Origin: a virus
DNA length: 64,000 nucleotides
IMG/VR virus record: IMGVR_UViG_3300032893_000012
Coordinates: 1 to 64,000 of that record
Direction: 5' to 3' (one strand)
The notes under the pieces were generated by a model that made no database searches, was not told the origin of the DNA, and saw only the letters and a program-made list of their open reading frames with translations. This document shows positions 134 through 17,784 of the stretch, piece by piece. The stretch's first letter is position 1. The number at the start of each line of letters is the position of its first letter. Made by a program: the position numbers and the translations under genes.

Positions 134-487
134 GTGGCCGACCGGCTTCGACGTGGGAATGAAAGGATGGTCTGCGCGTCAGGAACGCCGCTCACTTCAC
201 GAGGGCAAACGTCAGTTGCGAACGACAACGCAATCGCTCCCGGCCGCATCGCGGCTTGAGCTGTTCACCGAGCAAGGAACTCGAGTAGCGCGGTGAGCAC
301 GAACCCACACGAGTCCGGACTTCGCTAGGTAGCTCGGAGCGAAGTCGGTATTAGAGCAGCGAAGAACGCTCGTCTCCCGCGCCGATGGGGCGAGCAACGG
401 CGCCGGTGACGTTCACCGGCTACGACGCGTGAACGAAGACTGTGCAGACATCTCGCGGACCGGGGTTCGATTCCCCGCGGCTACACC
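134..487 (+). ncRNA. ssrA: tmRNA (transfer-messenger RNA)
   Basis: This is a one-piece tmRNA that rescues stalled ribosomes by adding a degradation tag. The 5' acceptor arm GTGGCCG (134-140) pairs with CGGCTAC (478-484), with one G-U pair. The conserved CTTCGACG segment follows the 5' arm. The T arm is CGGGG-TTCGATT-CCCCG, close to the 3' end. The tag frame begins at the resume codon GCG (218-220) and reads ANDNAIAPGRIAA, ending at TGA 257-259; the ANDN start and the AA end are typical of bacterial tags. The 3' end reads ACC with CCA incomplete in the DNA, so the final A would be added after transcription. The length of about 354 nt is normal. It may be carried by the element or be the host ssrA gene, a common integration site, at the element's edge. 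Confidence 0.9.
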
Positions 488-502
488 GACCCTTCGGGGT
501 CG
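487..502 (+). terminator. UUCG-tetraloop hairpin after tmRNA
   Basis: A perfect 6-bp stem CGACCC/GGGTCG closes a TTCG tetraloop directly at the tmRNA 3' end. No T-run follows, so it is more likely a processing or stability element than a complete terminator. Confidence 0.5.
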
Positions 503-11552: not shown

Positions 11553-11595
11553 CTCGCCGAGAGAGAGTCGGTAGAGAGAGAAAGGTCTGGTGACG

Positions 11596-12294
11596 ATGGC
11601 GGACGATAAGCGTTCCCTGCGGTTCTGTGCGCTCTTGGATACGGAGACCACGGGGATGAACCCCGCGTCCGACAGGACGATCGAAGTCGCGGTGATGCTC
11701 TTCGACCTGAAGCACGCGCAGCCGGTCATCAGTTTCGCGAGTCTGATCAAGGGGGAAGCCGACAACGCCGCGTTTCCCGTCAACGGCATTCCGGCGGCGA
11801 TGCTCCCGGAGGCGCGCGAGTCGGAGCGCGTTTGGGCGGCGGTGAGATGGGTCATCGAACCAGCCGCCGTGATCGTGGCTCACAATAGTGATTTTGATCG
11901 GCAGTTTACGCCCGATCTCGGCAAGCCATGGGTGGACAGCGAAAGCGACATCATATGGCCCGGTAGCCAGAAAGGCGGCCGCGGGGGCTCGCTGTCTCAC
12001 CTGGCGCTCTCCATGGGGGTCGGCGTTGCGAGCGCGCACAGAGCGATGTGCGACGTGGATACCCTCTCACGCATCCTGACTCGGCTCGCCGAAAAGGGTC
12101 ACGACCTCGAAGCGATGCTCATGCACGCGATGCGACCGAAGGCGATGTTCCACTCGCTCGCGCCGTTTGAGCAGAAGGATATCGTGAAGGAGGCAGGCTT
12201 CCGATGGGACCCAGACCGGAAGGTGTGGTGGCGTCGGATGGCGATCGACGATGCTAAGGAGCTGCCGTTCAAGGTGAGGCAGGTGGGGGCGTGA
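11596..12294 (+). CDS. DnaQ-like 3'-5' exonuclease
   Basis: A DEDDh exonuclease of 232 residues. ExoI is LLDTETTG (about 14-21), ExoII is VAHNSDFDR (about 93-101), and ExoIII is HRAMCDVDTL (about 148-157) with the His five residues before the Asp. A short C-terminal module follows (EQKDIVKEAGFRWDPDRKVWWRR) like the DUF5710-type domain seen on phage and plasmid proteins. It is the first gene of the rightward operon and probably processes DNA ends for replication or recombination. ATG 11596 is preferred over GTG 11590. The stop overlaps the next GTG. Confidence 0.85.
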   Translation: MADDKRSLRFCALLDTETTGMNPASDRTIEVAVMLFDLKHAQPVISFASLIKGEADNAAFPVNGIPAAMLPEARESERVWAAVRWVIEPAAVIVAHNSDFDRQFTPDLGKPWVDSESDIIWPGSQKGGRGGSLSHLALSMGVGVASAHRAMCDVDTLSRILTRLAEKGHDLEAMLMHAMRPKAMFHSLAPFEQKDIVKEAGFRWDPDRKVWWRRMAIDDAKELPFKVRQVGA

Positions 12295-12500
12295 GCAATA
12301 AATTCATCCGTGCCGCATCGAACGAGGACAGCGAAGCCTGGCGAACACTCGGCAAAATTCGCAGAGAACCAGGAGCCGGTAACCCGAAGTGCATGGCGTG
12401 CAGCATCGAAGCGGAGATCGGAACCGAGGAGAATCCGCATCCGGTTCCGGAACGCTTCCACACGTGTCCGCCGGTTGGCGCGAAGGGGAGGAGACCATGA
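12291..12500 (+). CDS. Small Cys-containing protein, 69 aa
   Basis: Starts at GTG 12291 in a GTGA overlap and ends overlapping the next ATG (ATGA). It has CMAC at about residue 35 and FHTC near the end, a possible minimal metal site. Function unknown; the double coupling supports it as a gene. Confidence 0.6.
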   Translation: MSNKFIRAASNEDSEAWRTLGKIRREPGAGNPKCMACSIEAEIGTEENPHPVPERFHTCPPVGAKGRRP

Positions 12501-13561
12501 AGTGCTACCTGTTGGAGACGAAGACCGCCGGCGAGGACATCTCCTTCGGCTCGACTTTCTGGAAGCGCACCACCCTCGACCCGCAGCTCTCGCTCTATCT
12601 TCCAGCGATCCGAAAGCTCGGTCACGATCCGCGCGGTTGTATTTATGAAGTGCTGAGGAAGCCTGACCAACGCCCCGGCACCGTCCCTCTCCTCGATGAG
12701 AACGGTTTGAAGATCGTGCTCGATGCCGACGGACAACGCGTGCGCACAAAGGATGGTAAGAAGTGGCGTCAGACCGGCGATACCGAGCTCAAGTACGCGC
12801 TTCAGACTCGTCCGGAGACGCCGGAGGAGTACGGACAACGGTGTCTCGATGCTATCGCGGAGGCGCCTGACAAGTACTACGCCCGCGGTGTCGTAGTCAG
12901 GCTCGAGGCCGACGAGCGCGAGGCGGCGCAGGACATGTGGAACACGGCGTCGTTGATGCGCGATGCGCGGCGGCTCAACATGTATCCGAGAAACGCCGAC
13001 GCCTGCATCTCGTGGGGCCGCGAGTGTGACTATCTCAACGTGTGCGCTGGCGTGATGGATCTCAACGATCCATTGTTCTTCCGCTTCGAAGAAGACATCC
13101 ACGAAGAACTCGCCGAAGAAGGCGTCGCGACGACCCTGACCGATGACGCGAGTCTCCTCACACAGAGCGCGATGCGCGCTTACCGCTCGTGTCCGCGAAA
13201 GTTTCAGCTCCGCTACGTACTCCGGATGCGTCCGCTCAAGAAGTCGGAGGCGCAGTCGACCGGTCATAGCGTCCACGCTGCCCTCGATGTCTATCGCCGG
13301 ACCGGCGGCGATCTACCGGCGGCGCTTGCGGCGCTAGAGACCGAGGATCCCTACGTGCGCGCCAAGGAGGAAGCAATGCTCATCGGTTACGCTACACGAT
13401 GGGGGAAGCCGACTGGAGTCATCGCCATCGAGAAGACCTTCCGAATAAATTTGGTGAATCCAGAAACTGGAGCAGCTAGTCGCACATTTTCTCTTGGCGG
13501 CAGAGTCGATGCAATCGTTCAGGCCGAATCGGTAACTGAACTGATAAATCCGGTGGGTTGA
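12497..13561 (+). CDS. Circularly permuted PD-(D/E)XK iron-sulfur nuclease
   Basis: A 354-residue protein of the RecB/Cas4/AddB-like class, but with its halves in swapped order. Residues about 1-205 carry what is normally the C-terminal half: the E-x-K motif at the very start (LLETKTAGED), then LDPQLSLY, ETPEEYGQR, and the cluster CISWGRECDYLNVC. Residues about 215-354 carry the normal N-terminal half: CPRKFQLRY (first cluster Cys), GHSVHAAL, and the catalytic Asp in LGGRVDAIV, after which the frame ends. All catalytic and cluster residues are present once. The start has a good AGGAG site and ATGA coupling, so the permuted form is probably expressed. A homing endonuclease gene begins one base after the stop. 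Confidence 0.75.
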   Translation: MKCYLLETKTAGEDISFGSTFWKRTTLDPQLSLYLPAIRKLGHDPRGCIYEVLRKPDQRPGTVPLLDENGLKIVLDADGQRVRTKDGKKWRQTGDTELKYALQTRPETPEEYGQRCLDAIAEAPDKYYARGVVVRLEADEREAAQDMWNTASLMRDARRLNMYPRNADACISWGRECDYLNVCAGVMDLNDPLFFRFEEDIHEELAEEGVATTLTDDASLLTQSAMRAYRSCPRKFQLRYVLRMRPLKKSEAQSTGHSVHAALDVYRRTGGDLPAALAALETEDPYVRAKEEAMLIGYATRWGKPTGVIAIEKTFRINLVNPETGAASRTFSLGGRVDAIVQAESVTELINPVG

Positions 13562-13562
13562 T

Positions 13563-14201
13563 ATGAGCAGAAAGCCTATTCACGGAATGTCAGGTTCTCG
13601 TGAGTATCGCATTTGGATGGGAATGCGCAAAAGGTGTTCTCAGAGGTTGGGGTCGGATAGTTATTTGAACCGTGGGATAAAGGTTCATTCACGATGGGAA
13701 TCATTTGGAAATTTTATTCATGACATGGGCTTGGCGCCAAGCGACAAGCACCAGCTAGATCGAATTGATAGCAATGGCGACTACGAGCCATCTAATTGTC
13801 GATGGGTTACTACGGTAGAGCAGCAAAGAAACAAGCGCAGTAACGTTAGACTGTATTTTAACGGTGAAACACTGACACTTACTGAGTGGGCGGAGCGATT
13901 GGGTATAACGCCGCAGGCGATTAGTCACCGTCTTCGTCATCTTGGTTGGTCTACAGAGCGCGCCTTAACGGAAACAAAGAAAAGCATTAATGGTGGTCCA
14001 CATCCGCGGGCTAATGCGGTGATGCTTGAAGTAGACGGGGTGAATCTAATCGTTTCCGAATGGGCTCGAAGGATCGGTGTACGCCCAGGTGTTCTATACC
14101 ATCGCATTCAAATGAACTGGCCCAAAGATCGCATCCTTGAAAAACCGATAAGAGGAAGAAAAGTAGTCCCTGAGGGAAAATTCTTAGGGGTCGCGTCGTA
14201 G
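13563..14201 (+). CDS. Putative homing endonuclease (HNH-like)
   Basis: A 212-residue protein whose N-terminal half has the pattern EYRIWMGMRKRC ... GIKVHSRWESFGNF ... LDRIDSNGDYEPSNCRWVT, common in free-standing phage homing endonucleases. The C-terminal half carries two similar modules (GETLTLTEWAERLGITPQAISHRL and VNLIVSEWARRIGVRPGVLYHRI) that look like duplicated helix-turn-helix DNA-recognition units. It begins one base after the broken edge of the nuclease gene, exactly where the nuclease's catalytic E-x-K would be expected, so it probably marks an insertion. Its base composition is lower in GC than its neighbours, consistent with later arrival. Confidence 0.7.
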   Translation: MSRKPIHGMSGSREYRIWMGMRKRCSQRLGSDSYLNRGIKVHSRWESFGNFIHDMGLAPSDKHQLDRIDSNGDYEPSNCRWVTTVEQQRNKRSNVRLYFNGETLTLTEWAERLGITPQAISHRLRHLGWSTERALTETKKSINGGPHPRANAVMLEVDGVNLIVSEWARRIGVRPGVLYHRIQMNWPKDRILEKPIRGRKVVPEGKFLGVAS

Positions 14202-14233: not shown

Positions 14234-15088
14234 ATGCCGAAAGCCTCAAGAGATTCGCTGAACGCCAAAGGGAAGCGCGACGCCTACATGTTCGACCCGG
14301 ACGATCTGGTCCTGGTCACCGACGAGAAGTCCCCGATCTACGACGAGCGTGTTCACCTGCCCGTCGACGAGGCGCTCGTCCTCAACCTGCTACACGCCCC
14401 CGACGGGGTGCCGCAGGGCGTCATCGAGCCAATCACCGTCATCCGCAACCCGGAGACGGGGAAGGTGGAGGTACTCGTCGGGCGTCAGCGCGTGAAGGCC
14501 GCACGCGAAGCAAACAAGCGTTTGAAGAAGCAGGGCCTCGAACCGATCCGGGTGCCTGCGATGATCCAGCGTGCGAACAATTACCGCGCGATGGGGATCC
14601 TGATCAGCGAGAACGAGCTTCGTCAGGACGATACGCCGCTCGGGCGTGCCAAGAAGGCACAGCGGTACCTCGATCTCGGTCGCAGCGAAGACGAGGTGGC
14701 TGCTCTCTTCGGGATCAGTAAAGCGTCCGTGAAGAACATGCTGGCGCTCCTCGATGCGCCGGCGGCCGTACGCAACGCGGTCGAGGCGGGGAAGATCACG
14801 ACTTCGGAGGGGTACAAGCTCTCGAGGCTCGAACCGGCGGAGGCAAAGGAGAAGGTTTCCGAGCTCATAGAGCACGCTCCGCGTACGCCGGGCAAGAAGC
14901 GTCGTAGCAACTCGACGAAGGCTCGAGAGATCGTTGGCGGCAAGAGCAACGGGAAGATCTCGAAAAAAACCGAGGACGCGGTCGCGACTGACATCGCGGC
15001 GTGGATCGATGCCAATTGGGACGACTGTGCGGAGATTACCAGGAAGCTCCGCGGTGGGGAGTGGAGGAAGGTGAGAGGAGAGTCGTGA
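14234..15088 (+). CDS. ParB/Spo0J-like DNA-binding protein
   Basis: A 284-residue ParB-family protein. Residues about 50-110 give the ParB/Srx-like fold: QGVIEPITVIRN, then VLVGRQRVKAAREAN (the GxxR nucleotide-binding motif), then a helical stretch with ENELRQDDTPLGRAK. A helix-turn-helix follows (EDEVAALFGISKASVKNML, about 160). It may partition a plasmid-like prophage or regulate transcription; no ParA is visible next to it. RBS GGAG lies just upstream. The C-terminal third is basic and linker-rich. Confidence 0.8.
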   Translation: MPKASRDSLNAKGKRDAYMFDPDDLVLVTDEKSPIYDERVHLPVDEALVLNLLHAPDGVPQGVIEPITVIRNPETGKVEVLVGRQRVKAAREANKRLKKQGLEPIRVPAMIQRANNYRAMGILISENELRQDDTPLGRAKKAQRYLDLGRSEDEVAALFGISKASVKNMLALLDAPAAVRNAVEAGKITTSEGYKLSRLEPAEAKEKVSELIEHAPRTPGKKRRSNSTKAREIVGGKSNGKISKKTEDAVATDIAAWIDANWDDCAEITRKLRGGEWRKVRGES

Positions 15089-15978: not shown

Positions 15979-16087
15979 CGTATCCACCCTCTCTAGCACC
16001 GACATCCTAGCTCTCGCTGCGTCTGCGAAGGATCCGAGTGAGAGGAGGCGATACCGAAGGATGCTAAAGGAGTCTGCAAAGACGTGA
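15878..16087 (+). CDS. Possible small protein, 69 aa
   Basis: GTG start; its stop overlaps the next GTG (GTGA), which is the main support. The C-terminal helix STDILALAASAKDPSERRRYRRMLKE looks protein-like. Function unknown. Confidence 0.4.
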   Translation: MRPKLPTAMHTLPSRHGGTGAGGSSPVAQETSRSVSTLSSTDILALAASAKDPSERRRYRRMLKESAKT

Positions 16088-16359
16088 CGGCGCGTCTGGA
16101 TCTTGTGGGTAACCGCTTCGGTCGTCTCGTCGTTGTGGCACGGGCGTTGGCACGCAATACAGGCAGACATAAGTGCGTATGTGATTGTGGTTCGATTACG
16201 ATAGTATGGCCTGACCAGCGGAAGCACTATTTCCTGCGGATGTCGCCGAAGGGAACATTGGAATTCATTCAGTCGAAGGCATGGAAAAACAAATACACCC
16301 ACACATCGCTCGTGGATGTCGATGATCACACGTGGAACGCGCGCTCACTCAGCCGGTAG
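16084..16359 (+). pseudogene. Truncated homing-endonuclease-like fragment
   Basis: The first 45 residues (LVGNRFGRLVVVARA ... HKCVCDCGSITIVWPDQ) match the N-terminal zinc-binding part of phage HNH/AP2 endonucleases, which normally continues to a GxxxSCGC motif. Here that part is missing, and the frame jumps to a segment (SLVDVDDHTWNA) that resembles a later part of such proteins. I read it as an internally deleted remnant. Start GTG 16084. Confidence 0.5.
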
Positions 16360-16387: not shown

Positions 16388-17308
16388 ATGATCGATTTGA
16401 AGAGAATCTCTGAAGGAAAGCAACAGCGAGAGCCTAGAGTGCTTTTGTACTCGGCCGATGGTCTGGGTAAGACGAGGTTCGCGGCCGGGGCTCCCGATCC
16501 GTTCTTCATCGACGTGAACCGAGGGAGCTTCCAGTACGACGTCAAGCGGGTCGTGCCGGAGACATGGAGCGAAACGCTCGAGTGGATCGGTGCCGTGGAA
16601 AGCGGCGCGGTGAAGTGCAAAACGCTCGTGATCGACTCGGTAAGCGATCTCGAGCATATGGGTAACTCGGAATTCTTTCCGAACACGACGATCGACAAGT
16701 ACGACGGTGGCTACGGCAAAGGTGACACGTATTCGCTCACGCGCTGGCGAGAGCTTCTGAGCGCACTCGAGCGAGTATGGGCGTCCGGTAAAGGGGTCGT
16801 TCTGATCGGTCATGCAACGGTGAAAAGGTTCGACGATCCAATGGGGGCCGGATATGATCGCCATGAGCTCTCGTTGAGACAAAAGCTCGCCGGGCAACTT
16901 AGACAGTGGGTCGACTTCGTGTTCTTCGCCACCCTCGACGTTGCTCAGCAGAAAGTTGGCGGAGAAACGAAGGCCGTTACTACCGGCACCCGCTGGATTC
17001 ACACGCAACGCTCTCCGGCCTTCGATGCCAAATCTCGCGGCACGACGATGTTTCCAGAGAGGATTCCGCTCTCGTGGGATGACTTCGCCCGCGCCCGCAC
17101 CGCCGACTCGGAGCGCGCCGAAGCGCTCCGCAAAGAGATCGAGGCGATGCTCGTCGAGATCGCTGACAAGAACCTCGACGCGATGGTCAAGGAGTACCTG
17201 CGCGCCAATCCGGGCATGGTCGTCGAGGCCAGGAATCGAGTAGCCGCACGCCTGGAAGAGGCGCGCGCCAGTAAGACAACGACTGCGAAGCAAGGAGAAG
17301 AGAAATGA
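16388..17308 (+). CDS. Sak4-like RecA-fold ATPase
   Basis: A 306-residue P-loop ATPase of the phage nucleotide-binding/Sak4 type, which pairs single strands in recombination together with a phage SSB. Walker A reads SADGLGKTRF (about 25-34), a GxGKT variant lacking the first Gly. Walker B is KTLVIDSVSDL (about 80). A sensor-like VVLIGHATV follows (about 138), then a C-terminal helical region. ATG 16388 has an AAAGAAGG site upstream; the open frame before it is not needed. The next gene is SSB-like, the known partner arrangement, and shares an ATGA overlap. Confidence 0.75.
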   Translation: MIDLKRISEGKQQREPRVLLYSADGLGKTRFAAGAPDPFFIDVNRGSFQYDVKRVVPETWSETLEWIGAVESGAVKCKTLVIDSVSDLEHMGNSEFFPNTTIDKYDGGYGKGDTYSLTRWRELLSALERVWASGKGVVLIGHATVKRFDDPMGAGYDRHELSLRQKLAGQLRQWVDFVFFATLDVAQQKVGGETKAVTTGTRWIHTQRSPAFDAKSRGTTMFPERIPLSWDDFARARTADSERAEALRKEIEAMLVEIADKNLDAMVKEYLRANPGMVVEARNRVAARLEEARASKTTTAKQGEEK

Positions 17309-17784
17309 TCACTGCTAGGGATTACGAAGGTCAGGCAATCAAGGGCAAGGTTCAGCTCGGGGAGACCACGAACGGTGGTCTTCAGATCGCGATCGACATG
17401 AACCTGTTCGACAAGGACCAGTTGGTCGGACAGATGACAACGCTTCTGTATTTCACGGAAGCGGCGGCCGTGTATTCGTACGAACGTCTGCGCTTGCTCG
17501 GTTGGAAAGGGCAAGGTCCGGACGATATCGACAAGATGGACGACATCTTCGAGAAGCGGGTTCCGGTTCGAGTGACCGCTCCGGAACCGTTCACGGACAA
17601 GGACGGAACCAAGAAGATGGGCTCACCGAAGCTCGAAATCATTACCGGTGCCGGCACTCTAGTGCTCGCCAAGCCTCTCGACGCTGGTACGTTCAAGGCT
17701 CGGCTTCGAGCACTGGGCGGCGGCGGGAGCGCCGGATCGGCGCCGCCGGCGGGTGGAAACGGAGGGACGGCGCCTCCGTTTTGA
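17305..17784 (+). CDS. Single-stranded DNA-binding-like protein
   Basis: A 159-residue protein with a beta-rich body (ARDYEGQAIKGKVQLGETTNGGLQIAIDMNLF) and a Gly-rich, disordered tail ending GGTAPPF. A flexible tail ending in a hydrophobic Phe is the hallmark of SSB proteins (the classic ending is acidic then IPF); here the acidic residues are missing. Position directly after the Sak4-like ATPase supports the call. The OB fold is inferred, not demonstrated. Confidence 0.6.
   Translation: MITARDYEGQAIKGKVQLGETTNGGLQIAIDMNLFDKDQLVGQMTTLLYFTEAAAVYSYERLRLLGWKGQGPDDIDKMDDIFEKRVPVRVTAPEPFTDKDGTKKMGSPKLEIITGAGTLVLAKPLDAGTFKARLRALGGGGSAGSAPPAGGNGGTAPPF

Follow-up and report, generated by a model that had tools for sequence, protein, structure and literature searches.

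A probable natural circular permutation of a RecB/Cas4-type nuclease in a phage recombination module, one of three circular orders among its relatives

The window analysed here, a stretch of 64,000 nucleotides (nt) of viral DNA (positions 1 to 64,000 of IMG/VR record IMGVR_UViG_3300032893_000012), carries at 12497..13561 on its plus strand a gene for a 354-residue PD-(D/E)XK nuclease in which the two halves of the protein stand in the reverse of their usual order. The reading frame runs from an ATG at 12497 to a TGA at 13559-13561, and a ribosome-binding site (GGGGAGG, 12485..12491, plus strand) lies 5 nt ahead of the start. An earlier note on this DNA, made from the letters alone, had described just such a gene, with swapped halves, all catalytic residues and four cluster cysteines kept in one frame and a proper ribosome-binding site and start, and its account of the motifs was exact.

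To follow the order of parts along the chain, we classified the nuclease and its relatives with four module hidden Markov models (HMMs), defined by the patterns TxS..C..Y..G...H (module 1), ..W..E..NPET..GK.D (module 2), ExK..Q...Y..YDV..KP (module 3) and PRN..C..C..C..HxEL (module 4). All four match the window protein, each with an E-value below 1e-22, and they do so in the order 3-4-1-2. The chain begins with MKCYLLETKTAGED and enters module 3 at once (residues 5-59, 12509..12673, plus strand like all parts of the gene; E 5e-26), which holds the E7-x-K9 strand and Q30xxxY34 in columns that are invariant or nearly so. Module 4 follows (residues 122-205, 12860..13111; E 1e-32) with the cluster cysteines C170, C177 and C183, and finishes at HEEL. 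A fusion linker of 13 residues (206-218, 13112..13150) then leads from the old C terminus to the old N terminus, where module 1 (residues 219-268, 13151..13300; E 4e-23) supplies the first cluster cysteine, C232, in the context SCPRKF, together with G256 and H260. Module 2 (residues 286-341, 13352..13519; E 1e-26) contains E312, the NPET motif and the catalytic D338 in LGGRVDAIV, and the protein ends in a new C-terminal tail (13520..13558, closing with QAESVTELINPVG), which also occurs in relatives that have no homing endonuclease gene (HEG) beside them.

Read from end to end, the chain therefore presents ExK, QxxxY and cysteines 2-4 ahead of cysteine 1, H and D, and this reversed motif order is far beyond chance. 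Profile searches that know nothing of our modules recover the same swap: the start of Pfam PF12705 matches the end of the window nuclease (E 2e-14), and residues 217-344 align with positions 6-151 of the 364 in PHROG 1218 (E 7e-20), while in a canonical relative (L035) the PHROG 1218 match is collinear, with residues 4-329 on positions 8-344. The catalytic set of the RecB/Cas4-like PF12705 nucleases is complete (H260, D338, E7/K9, Q30/Y34), and so is their set of four cysteines, C232 plus C170, C177 and C183, although here the three precede the one. Since the linear order Cys1-H-D-ExK-Q-Cys2-4 is not found, the window nuclease is a permuted variant and no ordinary member of PF12705. The old termini are fused through the short linker, the new termini lie inside the ancestral chain, in the loop that links the D strand to the ExK strand, where the earlier note had placed them, and both parts are homologous to canonical orthologues that occupy the same locus upstream of a Sak4-like annealase gene (L016, L017, L035 and others).

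The same order recurs outside the window. A first scan of viral contigs found it in 13 contigs at 67-86% identity, and a second scan with an alignment of those relatives added further contigs with identity down to 60%. Together they come to about 18 contigs besides that of the window, drawn from different metagenomes and 60-86% identical, in which start, stop and neighbours are conserved. Their nucleases begin with M(K)VYLWETKT or similar and stop shortly past GG(R/K)VDAIV. A scan of genome contigs gave four relatives only, all in metagenome bins. Pairwise non-synonymous divergence (dN) is about one tenth of synonymous divergence (dS) in both halves and mostly even lower at the fusion linker, and the low dN across the junction indicates that the joined halves are translated, and kept by selection, as a single protein.

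A structure prediction, which the earlier note had proposed as a check, gave one joined fold. For the AlphaFold2 model we used an alignment of 144 rows made up of 3-4-1-2 proteins at full length, 2-3-4-1 proteins cut into a 3-4-1 and a 2 part, and canonical proteins cut into their 1-2 and 3-4 halves; all catalytic columns align in it. The model reached a predicted local distance difference test score (pLDDT) of 95.0 and a predicted template modelling score of 0.90, with lower pLDDT at the fusion linker, the main such stretch at about 75, and at the last residues. An earlier model from 12 close relatives had a pLDDT of 43 and was unusable, the alignment being too shallow. Foldseek, which keeps chain order, returned weak partial matches to AddB, RecE and MGME1 with no end-to-end alignment, and partial matches to viral PD-(D/E)XK models with template modelling scores up to 0.53, as would be expected of a permuted chain, which can align sequentially only in part. 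Sequence searches of solved structures gave no match.

The module HMMs further showed that the phage family holds three circular orders, with 27 distinct genes in the canonical order 1-2-3-4, 55 in the order 2-3-4-1 and 15 in 3-4-1-2 (window included). The exonuclease genes of the Tunturiibacter phages Tunturi_1 and Tunturi_2 belong to the 2-3-4-1 set. Across all three orders nine key residues do not vary in any of the 97 genes (Cys1, G, H, D, K, Q and Cys2-4), and the glutamate of ExK is sometimes an aspartate. The new joint between modules 4 and 1 measures 7-13 residues in every permuted clade, and the site in the 1-2 linker at which the chain was opened varies between permuted clades. Almost every locus, whichever of the three orders it has, carries a Sak4-like annealase gene downstream, and this constant neighbour identifies the nucleases as one gene in one genomic position. 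One 2-3-4-1 nuclease (L137:3310-4330) is split into two overlapping frames, 2-3 and 4-1, by a frameshift or a sequencing error.

Trees built with the modules set back into canonical order place the permuted genes among canonical ones. The ancestral order was in all likelihood canonical, because the whole superfamily and the outlying named phages are canonical: the PHROG 1218 and Pfam profiles themselves run 1-2-3-4, as do the genes of Theresita, Olihed and Pumpernickel, named actinophages outside our set in which the nuclease stands beside a RecA-like recombinase. On our careful tree the order must have changed four times or more. Genes in the order 3-4-1-2 sit among canonical ones (support for the enclosing clade 100/99), two 2-3-4-1 genes (L157 and L158) fall inside a canonical clade, and monophyly of the entire 2-3-4-1 set is rejected (p 1.5e-5). 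Trees from separate halves require four changes (modules 1+2) and five changes (modules 3-4), so mosaic recombination between the halves is no explanation. Since a single origin of 2-3-4-1 is rejected, the safe statement from these alignments is that there were at least three independent permutations, and perhaps up to five. A divergent 3-4-1-2 gene (L139:4019-4918), whose 3-4 half groups with canonical genes (Shimodaira–Hasegawa-like approximate likelihood ratio test 99), is possibly a second independent origin of the window's order.

We put at about 0.92 the probability that the window gene encodes a functional PD-(D/E)XK exonuclease of the RecB/Cas4 type, circularly permuted in nature and belonging to a phage recombination module composed of nuclease, Sak4 annealase, SSB and helicase, a reading that draws on sequence comparison and structural modelling. 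From an ancestor in the order 1-2-3-4, the former C terminus would have been joined in frame to the former N terminus, most simply through a tandem duplication whose outer parts were then lost, while a new start and a new stop would have arisen in the loop that separates the catalytic D strand from the ExK strand, to give 3-4-1-2. The four cysteines suggest why this could be tolerated. In AddB, Cas4 and Dna2 an iron-sulphur (Fe-S) cluster is held by four cysteines of the nuclease domain, one close to its beginning and three close to its end. If all four cysteines of the window protein likewise bind one cluster, it would staple the old ends together, and because the old termini would be held close a short in-frame fusion would be structurally cheap, while new ends could open in surface loops. 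Both the nuclease activity and the Fe-S cluster are predictions from the conserved residues. Judging by family, motifs and synteny, the enzyme would resect double-strand DNA ends, leaving single strands to be annealed by Sak4.

Several observations weigh against this account or parts of it. The alignment behind the fold contains half-length rows from relatives of other orders. A single clade of the remaining 2-3-4-1 genes, with the two large clades merged, is not rejected (p 0.135); L139 shifts between the 3-4-1-2 clade and canonical genes according to the half used; and some deep nodes of the tree are weak. Tandem duplication with loss of outer halves, the route that the earlier note had favoured, still stands as the simplest one, but a search of the flanks of all the genes found no vestigial extra modules, and no tandem-fused intermediate was found, so that route is only inferred.

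The alternative with the most behind it concerns an HNH homing-type endonuclease gene (13563..14201, plus strand; PHROG 3377, E 1e-53) that starts one base after the nuclease stop, as the earlier note had seen, and that the note had taken for the driver of the permutation. On that account an HNH gene inserted into the D-ExK segment of a canonical nuclease gene and split it into 1-2 and 3-4, a tandem duplication then placed 3-4-1-2 between two HEGs (HEG-[3-4-1-2]-HEG), and the halves outside them disappeared. In its favour, both ends of the 3-4-1-2 gene map to one site in the canonical gene, and an HNH gene touches the nuclease end in 9/18 distinct 3-4-1-2 loci versus 1/27 canonical and 0/55 2-3-4-1 loci (Fisher test, p 4e-4 against canonical and 2e-7 against all others, 9/18 versus 1/82), counts that come from three HNH queries and would miss other HEG types. 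The single canonical case, L106:4196-4750, has its HNH gene between nuclease and Sak4. The HNH gene lies 5′ of the nuclease in six 3-4-1-2 lineages and 3′ in three (the window, L066 and L015). However, the abutting HEGs are of several unlike HNH types, which looks like repeated insertion; for the same reason we dropped the idea of one HEG copy inherited within the clade. Six 3-4-1-2 relatives free of any HEG (L002, L009, L012, L014, L067 and L139) keep the same N terminus and C-terminal stop region, no canonical gene split by an HEG was seen, and every 2-3-4-1 permutation is without an HEG nearby. Since the HEGs are of unlike types, and since other 3-4-1-2 genes share these ends but lack an HEG, those now present most likely arrived after the permutation, and that of the window would be a later or separate arrival. 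HEG-driven duplication thus survives, on circumstantial grounds, as a possibility for the 3-4-1-2 clade alone and not as an explanation for the family, and we regard it as unlikely even there.

The association could also run the other way. One possibility is that the HNH enzymes target the segment coding for the active site, which is now divided between the two ends of the gene, and the permutation might then have been a response to enzymes directed at conserved D-ExK DNA: a site at which insertion destroys the gene would have been turned into harmless intergenic sites, where diverse HEGs could settle on either side. We consider this speculative and no more probable than the HEG-driven route. 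A nuclease gene split by an HEG is rejected for the window itself, where the nuclease frame is intact and the HEG lies outside it.

That the gene is a degenerate, non-catalytic remnant retained for some other role, as its unusual architecture might suggest, is very improbable given catalytic residues conserved throughout the 97 genes, save the occasional D for E of ExK, and a dN so far below dS. A permuted intron-exon gene, in which circularised or trans-spliced RNA would restore the canonical protein and the HEG would belong to a split group I intron, could in principle look alike, with an HEG immediately past the reading frame, but we give it hardly any credence: the gene has its own start and stop, conserved also in HEG-free relatives, purifying selection acts on the frame that runs through the 4-1 linker, and no intron RNA family was found between 11900 and 14400 with E-values up to 1 admitted, nor anywhere in the window at gathering score. 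That the contig was misassembled, or that fragments of two genes were joined into a chimera, for which nothing speaks beyond the odd order, is rejected to near certainty by the relatives that share this order with the same start, stop and neighbours, and by selection that spans the junction.

The window protein resembles the RecB/AddB/Cas4/Dna2-type four-cysteine nucleases in H, D, ExK and QxxxY, in its predicted compact fold and in the weak structural match to AddB. It differs in that cysteines 2-4 precede cysteine 1, whereas those enzymes usually have one early and three late, and in that its putative ligands all fall in one central stretch. The four-cysteine module has been described in Cas4-like pfam12705 proteins (PMC5704561). 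PHROG 1218 phage exonucleases, and related ones such as gp43 of Microbacterium phage Theresita and that of Micrococcus phage Olihed, are the same kind of nuclease in the same neighbourhood near RecA-like or Sak4 genes, but the profile and these named phages are canonical. The Tunturi_1 and Tunturi_2 ‘exonuclease’ (XJP11549.1, XOB77130.1) is homologous and holds the same place upstream of Sak4, though its permutation differs, and the 2-3-4-1 order is not mentioned in its annotation. Circularly permuted DNA methyltransferases are known in phages (jumbo phages) and in restriction systems (PMC7824862); they too are natural permutations of a DNA-acting enzyme, with another fold and activity. Free-standing HEGs beside conserved genes of DNA metabolism occur in T4-like phages (PMC2988022), but the window nuclease is one intact reordered gene and not a split one. 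In the open-access literature that we could search, no permuted PD-(D/E)XK nuclease turned up, in agreement with the earlier note, which knew of none.

Natural circular permutations are usually regarded as one-off events of great age that set distant families apart. In this family, related phages carry orthologous nucleases in three circular orders at one gene position, alongside close canonical sisters, so that both the route by which a permutation arises and its cost in fitness become open to direct test. An Fe-S-stapled nuclease may tolerate new chain ends unusually well, and such enzymes are missed or cut in half by automatic annotation and by structure searches that depend on chain order.

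A Sak4-like single-strand annealing recombinase is encoded at 16388..17308 (plus strand; PHROG 124, E 1e-35, AAA_24; synteny), Sak4 being a single-strand annealing protein (PMC5928155), and a likely SSB-like protein at 17305..17784 (plus strand) is proposed from its position and the annotated SSB of the Tunturi phages, with no family match. Sak4 adjoins the nuclease in most relatives; in the window the HEG, a ParB-like gene and small genes intervene. The ParB-like gene (14234-15088) also lies between nuclease and Sak4 in L009 and L013. Just ahead of Sak4, 16042-16359 (plus strand) is probably the remnant of a second HNH endonuclease, with the zinc-ribbon-like N-terminal part only. Upstream of the nuclease, 11590-12294 encodes a DnaQ-type 3′-5′ exonuclease domain joined to a DUF5710 segment, conserved in most of the 3-4-1-2 clade. 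Near the start of the contig, a tmRNA gene lies at 134-488 (plus strand; Rfam RF00023, 77.9 bits).
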